From Sycon ciliatum (Eukaryota; Porifera; Calcarea; Leucosolenida; Sycettidae), in assembly GCF_964019385.1 (NCBI RefSeq), contig NC_088643.1:81392699-81456698 (forward strand): a DNA stretch of 64,000 nt. Reading direction: 5' to 3'. The notes under the pieces were generated by a model, which saw only the letters and a list, made by a program, of their open reading frames with translations, was not told the origin of the DNA and searched no databases. Position numbers and translations under genes: made by a program. This document shows, piece after piece, positions 17,100 to 25,924 of the stretch (its first letter is position 1; the number at the start of each line of letters is the position of its first letter).

Positions 17100-20000
17100 A
17101 TGGATTCTCAGAAAGTCAACAGGGTAATATTACCTGGAGATGTTCTTGGTGAAGTGACTGAAAAGGTAAAATTGCGATTTGGTCCTGGAATTCGCCGTGG
17201 AGGTGATGAGATAATTGCTACGAAAAGTGGAATACTTCGTCACCGACGACCCGTGACATATTGGATTGACAACAACCAACGACGAGTAAGTACAATATAA
17301 CAGTACGTTATTAGGGAGAATACATGCTACAAGAAAGAGTGTATAACGAAAAAAAACTCTTTTTACGGGCAAAATAAACAGTATAAATGCAACACGAAAC
17401 TGGTAAGGAGACATACAATTCTACAAATCAGAATGTAGATGGAATTATAATTGAAACGAGACTGAATGTAGGGTCACTCAAGTGGAAGTTATTCTTTCAC
17501 AGTGATACGATCAGCTATTACTGTTGGCTTCAAAAACACGTACAAATACAATGTGCTGCAGAAGTGTTGATGATGTACTTTAGAACTGCTCTTTTGAAAG
17601 TCTTATCCAGGCGCCTCGAAGGGTACCCGTATCTCAGAATCGTCTGTACCTCAGAAAACACTACCGCCACGATGGATTTGACACATCAGCCTCTTCAAAT
17701 AGACTCACTCAACGACTATTGATACAATCCACATGCCTTCACAATAGGATCTGCGGGTTCTGACCTTTGATATGTGCTGAAATGGTTTACTGTAAGACAT
17801 GTTATTATAACGAGTCGCAAATTTAACGATTGTCCAAAATTCATAGGTTCACAAGAAGATACGTTAACGATCTTGCAGTCTTCAGACATATCTGCACACA
17901 ACACATATGAGGCATTAGAGCCTCAACAGAACTTATTATAACGAAAAAATCGCACCTGTTAAAACGTTAGATTTACTTCCTCGTTATAATTACATGTCTT
18001 ACAGTAGTTGACGGACATGAAAAGGAAGACTTTCTAGAGTCGAATGCAGGTTTATACCTGCAAGGTGTCTAGGTACACATCTCTTATGTGTGTAGCAAGG
18101 CGAAGCTTAGCCTGGTCCATGTCTTGGCCATGATGGAGGAATGCTTCTTGGGTCTTCAGTCTCGGATAGCAAGCACCTGTCCCCGGGGAAAATTGCGATT
18201 CCGCGGCCGCGTTTTTTTCCGCGTTTTTTGCGATTTTTTAAAAGACCGCGTTTTCCGCGATTTTCCCGCGTTTTTTGAACTTTTTTGTTGCACTACACGT
18301 ACACACAGTGCACTGTTCGGTCAGCAACGTCTCATCGTGGCGGCTTTTTACTCAAATATGACGAGTTCTTACACCAGAGACTTGTAACTGATTGATTTCA
18401 CTACATACTCACTGAAAATTGCCGCACATCAATAATATTCACCGCATATTCACCGCATATTTACCGCAAATTCACCGCAAATTATGCCATAATATGCCGC
18501 GTTTCCCCCCGCGTTTTTTGCGATTTTTTTCCGCAATTTTCCCCGGGGACAGAAGCACTTGTACAGGGAAGTGACTGAACAAACCATGTCATCATGTGCC
18601 CCAGAACACCACGGGGATATAGCTTGCTCATTATGCATGCCAGATGTTCATAGACTCAATGCTTATCCTGTTCATGATGCCTATACTATAGCATGTTGCT
18701 GTGGTAGAAAAAGCTCAGCTGGTGGGAGCGTGGGAATTACTGTAAAGCGACAAACTTTCGCGGCGCGCAAATTTAGCGTTTTCATCAATCGGGCTGGTTC
18801 ACGATGAGAAACTTTTGCGATTCTATCTCCAGTCGGATCTTGTACTGTCTACAATCAATGTACGGAGAGGTTTGCGGCGATTTATATTCGCGAATGTGTG
18901 GTGGTCGCGAAAATAGCGAAATTTAATCTCTCGCGAAAGTTTCTCACTTTACAGTAAAGACTGGCATGTTGAAGTACAGCTGCAAATGGAACACCTCATT
19001 GTGAACTGGTGGAAGTCTTCTACATGTGGGAGGGATTATAACATACGAATGCCTGCAAACCCAGTGCCTGTCGTAGTTTTGGGCACTGATTGCTTTATTC
19101 CCAAGATTTGCTAGATATAGTACGTCAGGCAAAGGGAGGGTGCTGCTGCACAACCAAATAAACAACGTTTGTGCATGCTAGTGATGTTTGCTCATACCAT
19201 GTGACCAAAAAAAAAAGATCACACTGGTCATCAATATCCATTGTAATTATGCCGAGAAACATTGTGCAGATTCCATAGAGATTTCATGTACAGCCACCAA
19301 CGTGAGGGCCTGTGGGGAAAAGTTCTCTCATAAGTGCTTTTGTGTTGTCGCCCTTTTCTTGCTCATGTGCCGCTGTCCAGTATGTACCAGTTGTGGATGA
19401 ATTCGTGATCGGTGTGGTGACTGGAAAGCCATCCATGGACGTTTATCGAGTTGATATTGGCGGCAGCATGCCCGCCTCATTGTCATACCTGAACTTTGAA
19501 GGTGCGACGAAACGCAATCGGCCCGCTGTACAGGTACAGTGCTGCAATTGTTTGATTGTACTCTTGTAATTGTTATGTTACGACATGTACTGTGAAGTAG
19601 GGCAAGAGCGCCCCAACAACTTGACCCCTTCTTGGTCCTGTTTTGGAGCTGAGCAGATGAACGCATCCTGATTGTAGGTCTAGGTCATGCAGAACAACAA
19701 GGACAATCTAGGCCTGATTGGCCTTGTTGTTCTGTATTACGCTCTGCCTCCGCGGTGTTGAGCACTGCCAGCACGCTGGGTACATCCTCCGGTCTAGGTC
19801 CTGCAACAGAAGCAGTGTACGCACAGTTCACATGCTGCCGTCTATCTGTGCTTGTTCCACTTCTGAGCAGTAGTGATCTCCAAACCAGACCGGTGAAGCG
19901 AGACCATGATTCATGTTAACACCGTATTCATTTACACTGGGCCGGTTCTTTGGTTATGAATCAAGGTGGGACACTGTACCAGAATCAAAAGTTCCATTTC

Positions 20001-21587
20001 ATTCATTCAAAACCGTCTTTTTTTTAATTATTGCCTCAGCTTCAGGAAGCTTTTGATTCTTGCAGTAAGAGTGGGAGAGAGAGAGAGAGATGATTTAGTT
20101 TAGAGCCAGCACATGTTTATCCTATGCACTATACTTTAACTGGCTGTGTTGGCTATAGGTTGGTGACACCATCTACGGTCAGTTGATCGTTGCCAGCAAG
20201 GATATGGAGCCCGAGATGACATGTGTCAGCGTGGCAGGAAAAGCCAATGGAATGGGTGTCCTGGAAGGTGGTCTCATGTTCCAGTGCTCGCTTGGCTTAA
20301 GTCGCAAGTAAGTTGACTTAGTATTTGTGGGGTGGTGACGTTCCACGGAGGTGCAACGGTGGTTCTTGACCTCCCTGGTACGCAGTTCCGGAATGAAGTA
20401 GTTGTAATAGGATGTGTACTTCTTCACTAAACCAAGTGGCTGGACTCCCATAATGAGGAATGTGTGTCAGTAGGTGTAATGTGCACTGCAACATGGCTGT
20501 AGCCTGGACAGAAACCTAACCTATCCATAGCGTAAAATCCTCTTGAGCCACCTGTGTAATGTAGTACATTTGCTGCAATGTCCCGCTGTGCTAGTGGCGG
20601 TGTTCGTTCAGAGCTAGATGATTTCCACTACGGTTGCTTGCTGGTTGCTTACTCAGGGAAGTCAGAATAGCAACAATGATGTACTAGTTACCGTATTTCC
20701 ACAAATAGTAAGCCGGTCTACTATTTTTTCAACCTCGTCCTAACCCGGCCTTATAATCGAGGACGGTCTTGTATTCGAGGACGGTCTTTTATTCTTTCAT
20801 CCCAGTTTGACCCCGGTCTTCTATTTCTCGCCACACAGCTTTACCCCTGTTCTTCCATTTTCTTCTACACAGTTTGAGCACGGTCTTCTATTTTTTCCCA
20901 CAGTTTGAGCACGGTCTTCTATTTTTAACACAAGAACAAAGACTCATTTAGTAGGCCCGGTCTTCTAATCGGAGGCAGTCTTTTATTTTTTCAATTGCCC
21001 CCTGCCCCGGCCTTGTATACGAGGAAGGCGTTGTATACGAGGACGGCCTTTTATTTGCGGAAATACGGTACCTGGACTATTGTTCTGACTGAAAGTGACA
21101 CGGCTCCACTCTGGTCATTGTGGTTGGGGCTTTGCGTAGGCGAAGGTTTTCACTTGATTTGTGCCCCATATATTGGTGAAATCATATTGAATCAAATGAA
21201 TTTCCAAAGTGTCACCACTTTTTTTCAAATAGAGGTCCCTTCTACAGTGGGGCTCTGTTTTTTATTGCTGCAGTTACGCCTTGTTGACCACATAGAACCA
21301 TACAGTAAGCAGCCTAGGGACTTTAGACAACTGTCTAGAACCATACAGAAATATCTTTGTCTGTGTCTTGTTGCAGGCTTCTAGTTACCAACTCTCCGAT
21401 TCTGGCTGCGTTCGGCAAGCGCTTCCGCTTTGAGATAACAGTGGGGACAAACGGTCGCGTATGGGTGAAGTCCCCTTCGATTGGTCAGACAATTGCTCTT
21501 TGTAACAGCTTGGATGCGGCAAGTCAGATGACAATGGAGCAGATCGAAGCTATGCTCTCGAAATTGGAGAAAGCTGCTCACAACTGA
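17100..21587 (+). CDS. EXOSC3: exosome complex component Rrp40 (EXOSC3), 4 exons
   Basis: A cap subunit of the RNA exosome: it binds RNA through S1 and KH domains and guides substrates to the 3'-5' nuclease in nucleus and cytoplasm. Exons: 17100-17285, 19381-19533, 20159-20307, 21377-21587, all with GT-AG introns and matching phases, giving 232 residues. The N-terminal part has [20 protein letters not shown]; the S1 region has [20 protein letters not shown] and [13 protein letters not shown]; then [20 protein letters not shown] and [11 protein letters not shown]; the KH region has [14 protein letters not shown], the family's divergent GxNGxxW loop. All align with animal Rrp40, whose vertebrate forms are longer at the N terminus. 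The start is the first ATG before VILPGDVL. The introns hold four MITEs. Confidence 0.95.
17790..18004. mobile_element. TA-flanked MITE in EXOSC3 intron 1
   Basis: The ends CTGTAAGACATG and CATGTCTTACAG, then TTATAACGAG-type sequence on both sides, are flanked by TA (17788-17789, 18005-18006). Tc1/mariner-pogo style. Confidence 0.7.
18177..18552. mobile_element. CTGTCCC-family MITE, copy 1 (6-bp target duplication)
   Basis: AAGCAC at 18171-18176 and 18553-18558. The ends are CTGTCCCCGGGGAAAATTGC and its reverse complement, followed by CCGCGGCCGCG and many GCGTTTTTTGCG words on both strands. It lies in EXOSC3 intron 1. Relatives are at 24320-24970 and 25469-25918. Confidence 0.85.
18740..18954. 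mobile_element. TA-flanked MITE in EXOSC3 intron 1
   Basis: The ends CTGTAAAGCGACAAACTTTC and GAAAGTTTCTCACTTTACAG are flanked by TA. Partial relatives occur near 32660-32930 and 43915-43995. Confidence 0.65.
20691..21068. mobile_element. TA-flanked CCGTATTTCC MITE in EXOSC3 intron 3
   Basis: The ends CCGTATTTCC and GGAAATACGG are flanked by TA. The interior holds repeated CGGTCTTCTATTTTT-type words. Its terminal sequence is shared with 35383-35565. Confidence 0.65.
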
Positions 21588-21989
21588 TTGTCTGTGTCAT
21601 GAGTGCTTGTATTATTCTCATTCCATTTTGAACCCCTTCTTACCAGCCAGTACATGTACATTTTTAAATCTGGGCTTGGCTAGTATTCTGGTTCCTTGTA
21701 CATACTTTTTACCTGTACGAAGTTAAGGAGTCGTACCATTTTTGCTTTTTTGATTTGGATTGGCTAGTAGTAGCCTGATTCCTTGTACATACTTTTACCT
21801 GTACAAAGTTAAGGAGTTGTACAAATACCTTTTTAATGTTTCCTCTTCAAGTGTATGAAGATACTCAGTTTAACTTGTACATTTTGTATATACTTTTGAG
21901 CTTCAATCTCATTATCCTAATGCTTACTTTAGTCTGCTGTAACAAGTTACATGACGCTTGCAGTATAGTGTATAGAAAATGGTGTGCAT

Positions 21990-21995
21990 AATAAA
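21990..21995 (+). promoter_or_regulatory. EXOSC3 polyadenylation signal
   Basis: AATAAA about 400 bp after the stop, followed by a T-rich tract. Likely the 3' end of the EXOSC3 transcript. Confidence 0.55.
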
Positions 21996-22202
21996 CAATC
22001 TTTTTTTTGACATTCTAAGTCACAGTGACTACTTGAGGCTATTATTCTCTCTGCGTGGATGAGTCGGTGCTATCCTTGTTTTGAGTAGAGGGCAGGGACG
22101 GCTACAGGACTTCCTGGCAGAAGGTACGAGCAAGAGTGCATACACCTTTTACGTATCCTTGGTATGTACCCAACTTTCATTGGTCTGTTTCAGTTCATAT
22201 AC

Positions 22203-22320
22203 AGTACAACCTGTAACTAAAGACCACCGTGACTAGCGGCCAGCCTGGTACTACAGACCACTTCGCCAGGCACGTACGGTCTCACATTATGGTTGTGCGG
22301 TGCAAACCTCTAATTTGAAG
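22203..22320. mobile_element. fragment of a Tigger-like element
   Basis: CAGTACAACCTGTAACTAAAGACCACCGTGACTAGCGG-type sequence matches the starts of 33044-33233 and of the element at 63271. The right end is not recognisable, so the copy is truncated. Confidence 0.55.
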
Positions 22321-22967
22321 TATGAAAGGTTGAAATTTCTTCTCCTCAGCCCCTCAAATAATACCTCTTGCATGACACCATACATATCCAATATTATTTC
22401 ATGGTACGGCATGGAGGTCGGAAGGTCTGTTCCCAGCAAATCGGAGCTCTTTGAACTGGGATATTTACAACAGCCGTGAATCACTTGTAAACAAAGGCGC
22501 AGCATGATTGTAGAATTGTGTTGTACTTGTACTAGGCTGTAGTTGGTGAATGCATCCACTATCATCCAGGGCTCCCAAGAGGATCTCCAAGAATCCATAG
22601 ATTTACCTAGGCTACAATCAAGAGTACATAACCCCTTGTAGTAGATTGATATCCAGTACAATCATGTAGGCAAGTAAGTAGTTATCACCCTCGCCTCGCA
22701 CTGGGTAATACCCTGTACGACTACTTATCGTCAAGAGTACGTGTTATGTACACTGCGCATGTGCTCTTGTCACGAGTATAGTTGTGGTATTCACAGTCTC
22801 GTTCTACAAAAGAGCTTTGAATTGAAGTACAAAAAGCATTTTCTTTTAACCCCCCCCCCCCCCCCCAAATATTACCTTGTGTAAATTGAAATTGTTGAGT
22901 AAAAAATCTAAATAATATTGAGTGATAGACATGCCCATTAAATCATGATATCAGGGTACTAGTATTA

Positions 22968-23262
22968 CCGTAAAGTACCGTTGATCCGCCCCCACGCCAT
23001 GTCGCTTCCCAGCTGGGTTTTCGGCAGGGGGCGGGAATTAGATCAAGGCTGTCAAGTGCAGTACGATGTACAACAACGTAGAGGATCAGACTCAATGTGC
23101 TGGATTGTGCACATTTTGATCCTGGATTGGCAAGTATTGTGTACAGCAGTGCATGCGTCGGTTCAACATCGTATTTCGTTGTATACGCCGAAGTCGCTTC
23201 ACAAGGAGAAAATCGACAGGGGGCGGGAATTAGAGAGGGGGCGGATCAACGGTACTTTACGG
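22968..23262. mobile_element. TA-flanked MITE with CCGTAAAG ends
   Basis: The ends CCGTAAAGTACCGTTGATCC and GGATCAACGGTACTTTACGG are flanked by TA. A second internal match is GGGGGCGG on both sides. It abuts the next element by 5 bp. Confidence 0.7.
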
Positions 23263-23267
23263 TAGTA

Positions 23268-24002
23268 CAGTCAAATCTGTCGTAAGCGACCGCCCCTTGG
23301 TGCAAGAAAAAGCGGTCGCTTACGGCAGATGTATGGTAAATCCGGCATACCAGGTATATGCTTCCATGTACAGTCGTCCCTCTCTAATCCGGCACTTTAT
23401 AATCCAGCACCCTCGATAAACCAGCACAATTTTCAGTAGCCAAAATGTCCTCTTCATGCACATTGCAGCAGTAAATCAGATTTGTTAATCCAGCACCCTC
23501 CCTAATCCAGCAGATTTTCGTGGCACAAATGGTGCCGGATTATAGAGGGACCACTGTACTCAAATCGACGAGAATAATGTGATTTTTAATATCATTTTAT
23601 TGGATATTCAACGACGACCATACCCGTATTACGCGTATGCGACACGGCAGTAGATCGACACTGCCTAGCGCCTGGACTTGAGAGCTACAGCACAGCCTCA
23701 GTACAGCCTACAGCCAGTACAGGCCAGGCGCCAGTCGATCGCACTTGCAAGACAACGCATTTTCACACTTTGCAGTTGACAGCGCACTGGCAAGTACAGT
23801 TTCGCACCTGAACCTGGGTCGCGGTCGCTTACAGCAGATTTGAATGCAGCCACCGTGCATGAAATCGCGGTCGCTGGTCGCGCACAGCAGATGGTCGCTC
23901 TGGACAGATCAGTTTGTATGTGAAACCGTCGGTGCACGGAAAATCGGTCGCTAACGGTAGATGGTCGCCTACAGCAGAGGTTGCTAACGGCAGATTTGAC
24001 TG
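23268..24002. mobile_element. TA-flanked CAGTCAAATCTG element carrying a nested Tigger-like MITE
   Basis: The ends CAGTCAAATCTG and CAGATTTGACTG are flanked by TA. Repeated GCGGTCGCT...CAGAT words occur inside. The 186-bp element at 23371-23556 interrupts it. Confidence 0.7.
23371..23556. mobile_element. Tigger/pogo-like MITE, copy 2, nested
   Basis: The ends CAGTCGTCCCTCTC and GAGGGACCACTG are flanked by TA; it matches 5263-5476 over its length (AATCCAGCACCCTC, CAGTAGCCAAAATGTCC). Confidence 0.75.
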
Positions 24003-24319
24003 TAGTAAATTATTTCGTTGGATCAAAGGAGCAAAAAGGACCATAATTATATTTAATAAAGGTCATCCAGAAGAAAATTGAAACTGACAGCGACAGTCAG
24101 TACACCGTGACTAAGTTGGTTGACCAGGGAGTAGAAACAATACTGTATAGTATTGTTGAGTTTTCTCCTACACTAACGTCTACTGTAGTTCTAGTGTACA
24201 GTACTCGCTGGTAATTCAAATATTGGAAACACAGCTTTCATGTGCCATCAAGAGTCCATGTTTATGCACTCTTGGTGCCATGAATGATGATGTACAGTGT
24301 AGTGGTACCAAGACTGAGT

Positions 24320-24970
24320 CTGTCCCCAGGGAAAATTGCGATTCCGCGGCCGCGGTTTTTGCGATTTTTTTAAAGACCGCGTTTTCCGCGATTTTCCCGC
24401 GTTTTTGAACTTTTCTGTTGCACTACACGTACACACAGTGTACTGTTCGGTCAGCAACGTCTCATCGTGGCGGCTTTGTACTCAAATATGACGAGTGCTT
24501 ACACCAGAGACTTGTAACTGATTGATTTCACTACATACTCACTGAAAATTGCCTCATATCAACTGCAAACTTGCCGCCGCGAGATGATATCAATAATATC
24601 AAGAGTACATAACCCCAAGAGTGTGCAACTGCCTGCACAACCTCTATGCTGTGCTACGACGGCAGAACTTCACATCACGTGACATGGTTCAAAAGGTTAT
24701 GCTGGCAAACAGTGCAAAGTGACCACAAGAGAGTTGTACCCAAAGCTGGGCTGCGTACAACCCAGTATCTATCATGCACAGATTGCACGGGTTCATCACG
24801 TGATGTGAAGTTCTGCCGTCGCAGACCCCATAGCTGGAGTTGCACACTCTTGGGGTTATGTACTCTTGATAATAATATTCACCGCATATTTACCGCAAAT
24901 TCACCGCAAATTATGCCATATTATGCCGCGTTTTTTTGCGATTTTTTTCCGCAATTTTCCCCGGGGACAG
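24320..24970. mobile_element. CTGTCCC-family MITE, copy 2, with nested insertion
   Basis: CTGAGT at 24314-24319 and 24971-24976. It matches copy 1 (18177-18552) closely, apart from a 273-bp insertion at 24598-24870. Confidence 0.85.
24598..24870. mobile_element. 273-bp palindromic MITE nested in CTGTCCC copy 2
   Basis: AATAAT at 24592-24597 and 24871-24876. The ends are ATCAAGAGTACATAACCCC and GGGGTTATGTACTCTTGAT; the interior is a longer palindrome with GACGGCAGAACTTCACATCA. A diverged relative lies at about 61324-61474. Confidence 0.8.
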
Positions 24971-25040
24971 CTGAGTACAAGTCATGAACATAACCAACCA
25001 GGGGGGGGGGGGGGGGTTTAATACTTTTGGCAAGTCTTGG

Positions 25041-25444
25041 GGCATGTTCGATTGGTAAGGATCGGGATCGGGATCCAGATCTCAGATCCCTCGGATCCTT
25101 CAGATTCAACTGAACACTTTATTTTGGACCTTGACTGTTGCCATGTTGAAAATGGCGCTCACAAGGCACCCTAAAGGGTGAACGTCGTACTCATCGCGTG
25201 CGTCGTACAAAAAGTCAACAAGCTCTATCTCCATCCACGTGTGCGTACCACAATGTGTACAAAAATGATTTTTACCCGCCATATACGCACAAAGGTCACA
25301 TTTGGATCCGATCAACCCTGCTCCCCGAGGAGGGTTGACCAGATCCAAATCCGAAGGATCCGGATCCGGATTCGACCAATCGAAAGGGTGCGAATCCAGT
25401 GGATCCGGTGGATCGGGATCCCGATCCTACCAATCGAACATGCC
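25041..25444. mobile_element. MITE with GGCATGTTCGATTGGTA ends
   Basis: CTTGG at 25036-25040 and 25445-25449. The ends GGCATGTTCGATTGGTA and TACCAATCGAACATGCC are followed by runs of GGATC words on both arms. Confidence 0.7.
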
Positions 25445-25468
25445 CTTGGTGGTACAGTTATTGATCAT

Positions 25469-25918
25469 CTGTCCCCTTGGAAAAACGCGATTCCGCGGCC
25501 GCGGCAAATTTCGCAGAAGTTGCCATTATCCGCGGAAATCACGGAATCCACACTTTTGCCCGCGGAATCTGAATTTTTTAGGGTAAATTACTAAAATTAT
25601 CACTCAGAAAGCAGCAGAAAAACTACTTTGCGATCTGTTTGAGCACATTTCTCTTGCCAGTGCAGGTCTCTCCAAGATTCTTCACTCTTATTCAGTTTGT
25701 GACTGCAAAGGATAGTATGAAAAGTGCTCTTTCATGCGACTAGTTGTCATATCCTCTACGAGGAGATGTCATATCCTCTACGAGGAGGGTGAAAAACTTG
25801 CAGAAAGTGCCGCAGATTTTTGATTTTACAGCAGAAAATGCCGCAGAAAACCCCTCTTTACCCCGCGGAATTTGCCGCAGAATTTTGAATTCTTGGCCGC
25901 GTTTTTCCAAAGGGACAG
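25469..25918. mobile_element. CTGTCCC-family MITE, subfamily 2
   Basis: GATCAT at 25463-25468 and 25919-25924. The ends CTGTCCCCTTGGAAAAACGC and GTTTTTCCAAAGGGACAG are followed by GATTCCGCGGCCGCGG, shared with copies 1 and 2; the interior differs (GCCGCAGAA words). Confidence 0.8.
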
Positions 25919-25924
25919 GATCAT

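Follow-up and report, generated by a model that had tools for sequence, protein, structure and literature searches.

Three miniature inverted-repeat transposable elements (MITEs) are located within 8 kb of the 64,000-nucleotide stretch of the Sycon ciliatum genome analyzed here (contig NC_088643.1, positions 81,392,699 to 81,456,698), herein referred to as the window. All three begin with CTGTCCCC, end with GGGACAG, and are flanked by exact 6-bp target duplications. Copy 1 (18177..18552, 376 bp) lies between two AAGCAC repeats (18171-18176 and 18553-18558), copy 2 (24320..24970, 651 bp) between two CTGAGT repeats (24314-24319 and 24971-24976), and copy 3 (25469..25918, 450 bp) between two GATCAT repeats (25463-25468 and 25919-25924). 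A 17-bp box, GCGATTCCGCGGCCGCG, is present at one element end only, at 18195..18211 in copy 1 (element positions 19-35), at 24338..24354 in copy 2 (read from the sequence), and at 25487..25503 in copy 3. The position of this box, together with the transposase gene of the relatives described below, fixes the orientation, so all three copies and their 5' boxes are on the + strand. At the 3' end of copy 1, eight CCGC words extend over 18422..18534 (+ strand), forming a proposed transposase binding array in which the count of GCGG is zero.

No other pair of CTGTCCC and GGGACAG at most 1 kb apart with an exact 6-bp duplication was found in the window. A generic scan for 12-bp exact inverted ends with a 6-bp duplication gave 7 pairs in the window, including copy 1, and 0 pairs in total in 10 mononucleotide shuffles of the same sequence. 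The first-pass annotation of this DNA had reported these three elements as one MITE family. Its coordinates, its CTGTCCC...GGGACAG ends, and the three duplications proved exact; the single family did not hold, the window containing two. Copies 1 and 2 match over most of their length and form family A. Copy 3 has the same end layout with a different interior and belongs to family B. The excess length of copy 2 comes from a nested inverted-repeat element (24598-24870) and a short additional stretch 5' of it. The nested element has the ends ATCAAGAGTACA and AATAAT on either side. AATAAT is single in copy 1, so the nested element is a MITE of another type, with an apparent 6-bp duplication as well. 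Sequence resembling it is also present at two of the transposase loci described below (L109 and L111).

Further copies were sought in the whole genome (538 Mb, 313 contigs). The search with family A listed 43 matches (40 scored) out of 917 first-look candidates, and 41 of the 43 were full length. Among the 29 full-length copies in the 28 loci fetched, the duplication is exactly 6 bp in 25, and two copies (L008 and L015) have no exact duplication. For family B, 40 matches were listed from 224 candidates. The duplication is exactly 6 bp in 24 of the 27 full-length copies fetched, two partial matches being left out of the count, and no exact one was found in L042, L053, and L055. In a third family, C, introduced below, it is exactly 6 bp in 17 of the 18 copies fetched, with none exact in L120. 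The 6-bp duplication is thus a stable property of these elements, whose MITE nature was also borne out.

The insertion target of families A and B, TnC|AnTAnT|GnA, is a weak palindrome, as derived from 47 distinct empty sites that show an exact 6-bp repeat. At L028, a family-A element is inserted in another A copy, and positions 128-133 of the interrupted copy (6 bp) are found on both sides of it. Flanks are shared within three pairs of copies (L011/L018, L014/L022, and L121/L124), which are probably not independent insertions. In the two family-A pairs, L014/L022 (contig C5, L023-L024 region) and L011/L018 (C12), both the flanks and the duplication are identical, which indicates duplicated segments of the host genome. 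The mean pairwise identity is 98.8% for family A (n=29), 95.8% for family B (n=27), and 97.2% for family C (n=18), values that overstate the youth of the whole families because the copies came from the top of the score lists. The MITE group is real and well supported, and its copies are young-looking.

A transposase-bearing relative was found through the hAT dimerization domain, for which 150 matches were listed from 422 candidates. Exact CTGTCCC was sought beside 50 of these 150, 30 with 1.5-kb flanks and 20 others with a 3' flank of ~1.2 kb. One of the 50 (L102) ended in the sought repeat, and several others contained chance or tandem CTGTCCC words. This match, on contig C14, ends in CTGTCCCTCCGGAAACTTGCGG, and the whole element, L107:2718-5577, is 2860 bp long, with the 5' end CTGTCCCTCCAGGAACTTGCGATTCCGCGGCCGCG, CTGTCCC ends, and an exact 6-bp duplication, CGTCAT. 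The end type of this lineage can be written as CTGTCCCNNNGGAAANNNNGCG. The element contains a single uninterrupted frame encoding 614 aa counted from the first Met (protein P0001).

P0001 matches the hAT C-terminal dimerization region (PF05699) with an E-value of 1.7e-10 and 41 bits, against a cut-off of 21.4. Its closest solved relatives are chains of the Hermes transposase (E 7e-5). It shares with Hermes (6dww, 8edg) the C-terminal dimerization region with the catalytic glutamate block (ERxFSL), although significant similarity is confined to this C-terminal region. The DDE core is assigned by alignment only: E575, C269, H272, and TRW 331-333 are invariant in 7 aligned sequences, and D176 and D244 were read off the alignment with reference to the Hermes numbering. 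A putative C2H2 finger of BED-like spacing (C41, C44, H59, and H65) was identified by eye, and a zf-U1 match (E 0.005) remained under the cut-off of that model.

Searching the genome with P0001 gave 74 matches listed from 320 candidates (72 scored). These comprise pieces of 34-94% identity, mostly from broken copies, and longer frames of 21-29% identity, many without stops. Six transposase loci (L107-L112) were read at length. Both ends and an exact duplication were found in L107 and L109, and one end of the same type in each of L108, L110, L111, and L112. The second complete element, L109:695-3312, is 2618 bp long and has an exact GTGACT duplication; the pieces of its transposase show 52% and 50% identity to P0001 and contain two stops. 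The lengths of both complete elements, which have short terminal inverted repeats (TIRs), are within the 2.5-5 kb range given for hATs (PMC3942097). L109 also carries another CTGTCCC end, from a different, old family, with 31 matches in the genome. At L111:1-837, a 31-bp unit occurs in many tandem repeats upstream of the transposase gene of a broken copy of the L107 family.

Family C was recovered with the start of the autonomous element. With the first 150 bp of L107 as the query, 40 scored matches were obtained among 216 candidates, including L107 itself, and 34 of the 40 tie on score (196 bits, 90% identity). The 18 family-C copies fetched measure 517-915 bp. All except L128 match the transposase gene over its first codons (17 of 18; tblastn, E <= 0.01). 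Four copies were tested at their ends, and each matches L107 at both. Since the gene start is kept and the ends match L107, family C is most readily interpreted as a set of copies derived by internal deletion from a close relative of L107. Family A is 84% identical to family C over the first 51 bp (four C copies compared) and matches the two L107 ends at 73% over 88 bp and 71% over 90 bp, in register with the tips. Family B has CTGTCCC, the 17-bp box, and an in-register stretch of 29 bp (90%) in common with L108 at the 5' end; the box is carried at that end by L107 and family C as well. Family B is tied less closely than family A to the L107-type elements. No convincing transposase remnant was detected by tblastn in A or B (best E 0.59), and nothing was detected across the window at E 1.

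Thus, the three repeats are very probably non-autonomous members of a hAT lineage that duplicates 6 bp of its target, and they are most likely mobilized by a hAT-type transposase encoded elsewhere in the same genome, which for families A and B would be a transposase of the L107 lineage. The ends, the 6-bp duplications, a relative that bears a transposase and has both, and short derivatives in which the beginning of its gene is retained were observed directly. The hAT-like mobilizer proposed in the first-pass annotation is therefore the best fit, with a hAT gene between CTGTCCC ends, a 6-bp duplication, and the derivatives of family C. Several observations weigh against this interpretation. Among the 50 of 150 listed hAT matches examined, none belonged to an autonomous element whose ends are exactly those of A or B; the search for one, suggested by the same annotation, led to L107, a relative with CTGTCCC ends. 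No BED-finger match to P0001 was found in Pfam at E 1. The best match between family B and an autonomous 3' end, that of L110 (76% over 86 bp), lies ~21 bp out of register, which points to a similar word array rather than a common tip. In family A, one of the 29 copies (L027, first copy) has a 7-bp duplication and one (L004) an 8-bp duplication. Further copies with 8 bp had been named in advance as evidence against the first-pass annotation; they do occur, at the low frequency of one in 29.

An 8-bp duplication is usual for the hAT superfamily, and Hermes makes 8-bp duplications; L107 and L109 depart from this rule with 6 bp. The earlier suggestion of a group outside the known superfamilies was not sustained, as hAT families with 6-bp duplications have been published under the name hAT6 (PMC12730594, citing Kapitonov and Jurka 2007). 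The exceptions to 8 bp described in that source are hAT5, hAT6, and hAT7. The elements analyzed here resemble hAT6, a Repbase group compared by description only, in combining a hAT transposase with 6-bp duplications; for hAT6 itself, the same source gives a lineage shared with Blackjack and other animal hATs (PMC12730594). The group is of a known kind, hATs with 6-bp duplications, and what makes it of note is the link between the CGGBP1-like transposase, described below, and the oriented, partly phased CCGC words.

These words prevail in one orientation. The ratio of CCGC to GCGG is 14:2 in family A, 25:7 in L107, and 14:1 in L109, differences that none of 500 dinucleotide shuffles attained. 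Family B shows a weaker difference (9:5, reached in 19 of 500). At the 3' end of family A, the eight words are located 131, 111, 100, 89, 78, 56, 44, and 22 bp from the tip, with a period of 11.0 (R 0.92, p 0.0003 versus random placement); without the outermost word, the fit was reached in 12 of 5000 placements. Single ends were tested for phasing where they have at least 4 words. L107 gave p 0.011 at the 3' end and p 0.044 at the 5' end. Tested alone, phasing fell short of significance for B (0.068) and L110 (0.38) at the 3' end and for A, B, L108, and L109 (0.25-0.77) at the 5' end. The first-pass annotation had described the ends as stuttering words. GCG words are indeed present and oriented, and a spacing of ~11 bp was found at the 3' ends of A and L107 rather than at all ends.

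An explanation that leaves the hAT origin untouched is that the CCGC words arose by simple-sequence slippage in GC/T-rich ends and are not binding sites. Between copies 1 and 2, stretches of 12 and 11 bp have been gained or lost, each with one word in it, as slippage would predict, and the ends without significant phasing are also in its favor. At the 3' end of A, a count of at least 6 is reached by only three 4-mers, each of them periodic: CCGC itself, the overlapping CGCA (R 0.91), and TTTT (R 0.86), the last of which likewise suits slippage. However, the excess of CCGC in A, L107, and L109 was never reproduced by shuffling. A set of words 22, 44, and 78 bp away from the 3' tip is common to A, B, L107, and three of four C copies but absent from L109, L110, and L120. 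When six 3' ends (33 words) were pooled, the period was 10.9 (R 0.73), reached in 0 of 5000 random placements, the families being related and not independent. On this evidence, slippage is an unlikely source of the words, although it retains appreciable weight.

Two other mobilizers that might account for 6-bp duplications are far less probable. IS3EU and GingerRoot transposons usually make 6-bp duplications (PMC10045372), and a transposase of this type could in principle have moved the MITEs. However, IS3EU ends are TA..TA and GingerRoot ends mostly TA..TA, sometimes TG..CA, as described in PMC10045372, whereas the ends here are CT..AG, and the gene found between CTGTCCC ends encodes a hAT transposase; a genome search for IS3EU genes was not made. 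We consider this explanation very improbable. Dada, which duplicates 6-7 bp and so agrees in duplication length only, targets multicopy (small) RNA genes and is the least credible candidate, given that the gene found is a hAT and that the 47 distinct sites, whose flanks were not screened for RNA genes, have only the weak palindrome in common. A coral MITE of suspected kinship was set aside, as it has TTAA duplications (PMC2872659). Among literature matches for CTGTCCC with transposon and duplication terms, only mouse VL30 and maize waxy were found by title, and CTGTCCC was found in none of the matches listed for MITE or terminal inverted repeat.

If the three repeats are hAT MITEs, as preferred here, their transposition can be pictured as follows. 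The predicted transposase of the autonomous relative combines a CGGBP1-like N-terminal region and a C2H2 finger with BED-like spacing with a DDE core and the C-terminal hAT dimerization region. The finger and the N-terminal region would bind several CCGC words of the ends, on a single face of the DNA, as well as the CCGCGG box close to the 5' end. The hAT core of the protein, if it is still active, would cut at CTGTCCC/GGGACAG, and the ends would then be joined with a 6-bp stagger to a target of the weakly palindromic type given above. With CTGTCCC ends and 6-bp duplications now linked to a hAT lineage with a readable transposase, similar MITEs elsewhere become classifiable.

The likeness to CGGBP1 was seen in an alignment of P0001 with the human protein, in which residues 1-162 of both are 41% identical over 164 aligned columns (128 bits), so that nearly all of human CGGBP1 is covered. 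Five other hAT frames of the same genome gave 32-51 bits against the same protein. CGGBP1 and many similar proteins were derived from hATs (Yellan and colleagues, PMC8097297), and the CGGBP1 domain model detects 29 of 824 hATs, chiefly hAT-19 (PMC8097297). Most motifs reported in that source contain CGG, several favor GCGC, and some are AT-rich, including those of two insect hATs. For four hAT-encoded proteins, their own motifs are present in the subterminal regions of their own elements (PMC8097297). The present data are consistent with this picture. The elements analyzed here resemble the hAT19/CGGBP1 type in the CGGBP1-like N-terminus of P0001 and in the CCG/CGC words of the subterminal DNA (PMC8097297, PMC9004415). 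They differ in that binding is predicted only, and some of the hAT motifs in PMC8097297 are AT-rich.

A bolder reading, possible but less likely than not, is that the 6-bp, CTGTCCC-ended lineage is the kind of transposon that gave rise to CGGBP1 and that its ends show the original role of this protein. That role would be the reading of a one-strand CCG(C)/CGG array, spaced at about one helical turn, beside a CCGCGGCCGCG box. If so, the binding of CGG repeats by CGGBP1 would be a relic of array-based recognition of transposon ends, and the 6-bp stagger would mark that hAT branch. The CGGBP1-like N-terminus and the oriented CCGC words together offer a natural DNA for asking why CGGBP1 binds CGG repeats.

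Other hATs of the same genome have 8-bp duplications. L115, L117, and L118 have TAG..CTA ends with the duplications TTCACAGA, ATCGTCAT, and CCTGGAGA, respectively, and the similarity between copies (L115/L116 and L117/L118) breaks off at these ends. L113 probably has an 8-bp duplication as well (GACCATGG), with two other registrations also fitting. In L114, L116, and L119, no end pair with a duplication was found in the end scan. These sister elements encode hAT transposases with a similar C2H2 finger, 22-24% identical to P0001. They differ from the CTGTCCC lineage in their TAG..CTA ends and in duplicating 8 bp instead of 6 bp. Therefore, the 6-bp duplication characterizes the CTGTCCC lineage and is not general to the hATs of this genome. 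The 6-bp and 8-bp hATs of one genome form a natural pair for asking which feature of a hAT transposase determines the stagger. The 8-bp elements L117:802-3684 and L118:808-3690 are 99.97% identical, and their TIR, TAGGCATCGGCGGC, includes CGGCGG, reported as the motif for human CGGBP1 (PMC8097297).

Additional inverted-repeat pairs of other kinds are present in the same 8 kb of the window, at 20686-21073, 22962-23268, 23368-23559, and 25058-25428, and some of these are possibly MITEs. Between copies 1 and 2, the frame 21378-21584 matches the C-terminal part of the solved RRP40 (E 1.5e-9), which marks the window as eukaryotic. This frame is an exon of an RRP40-like exosome gene, which places MITEs on both sides of a housekeeping gene.

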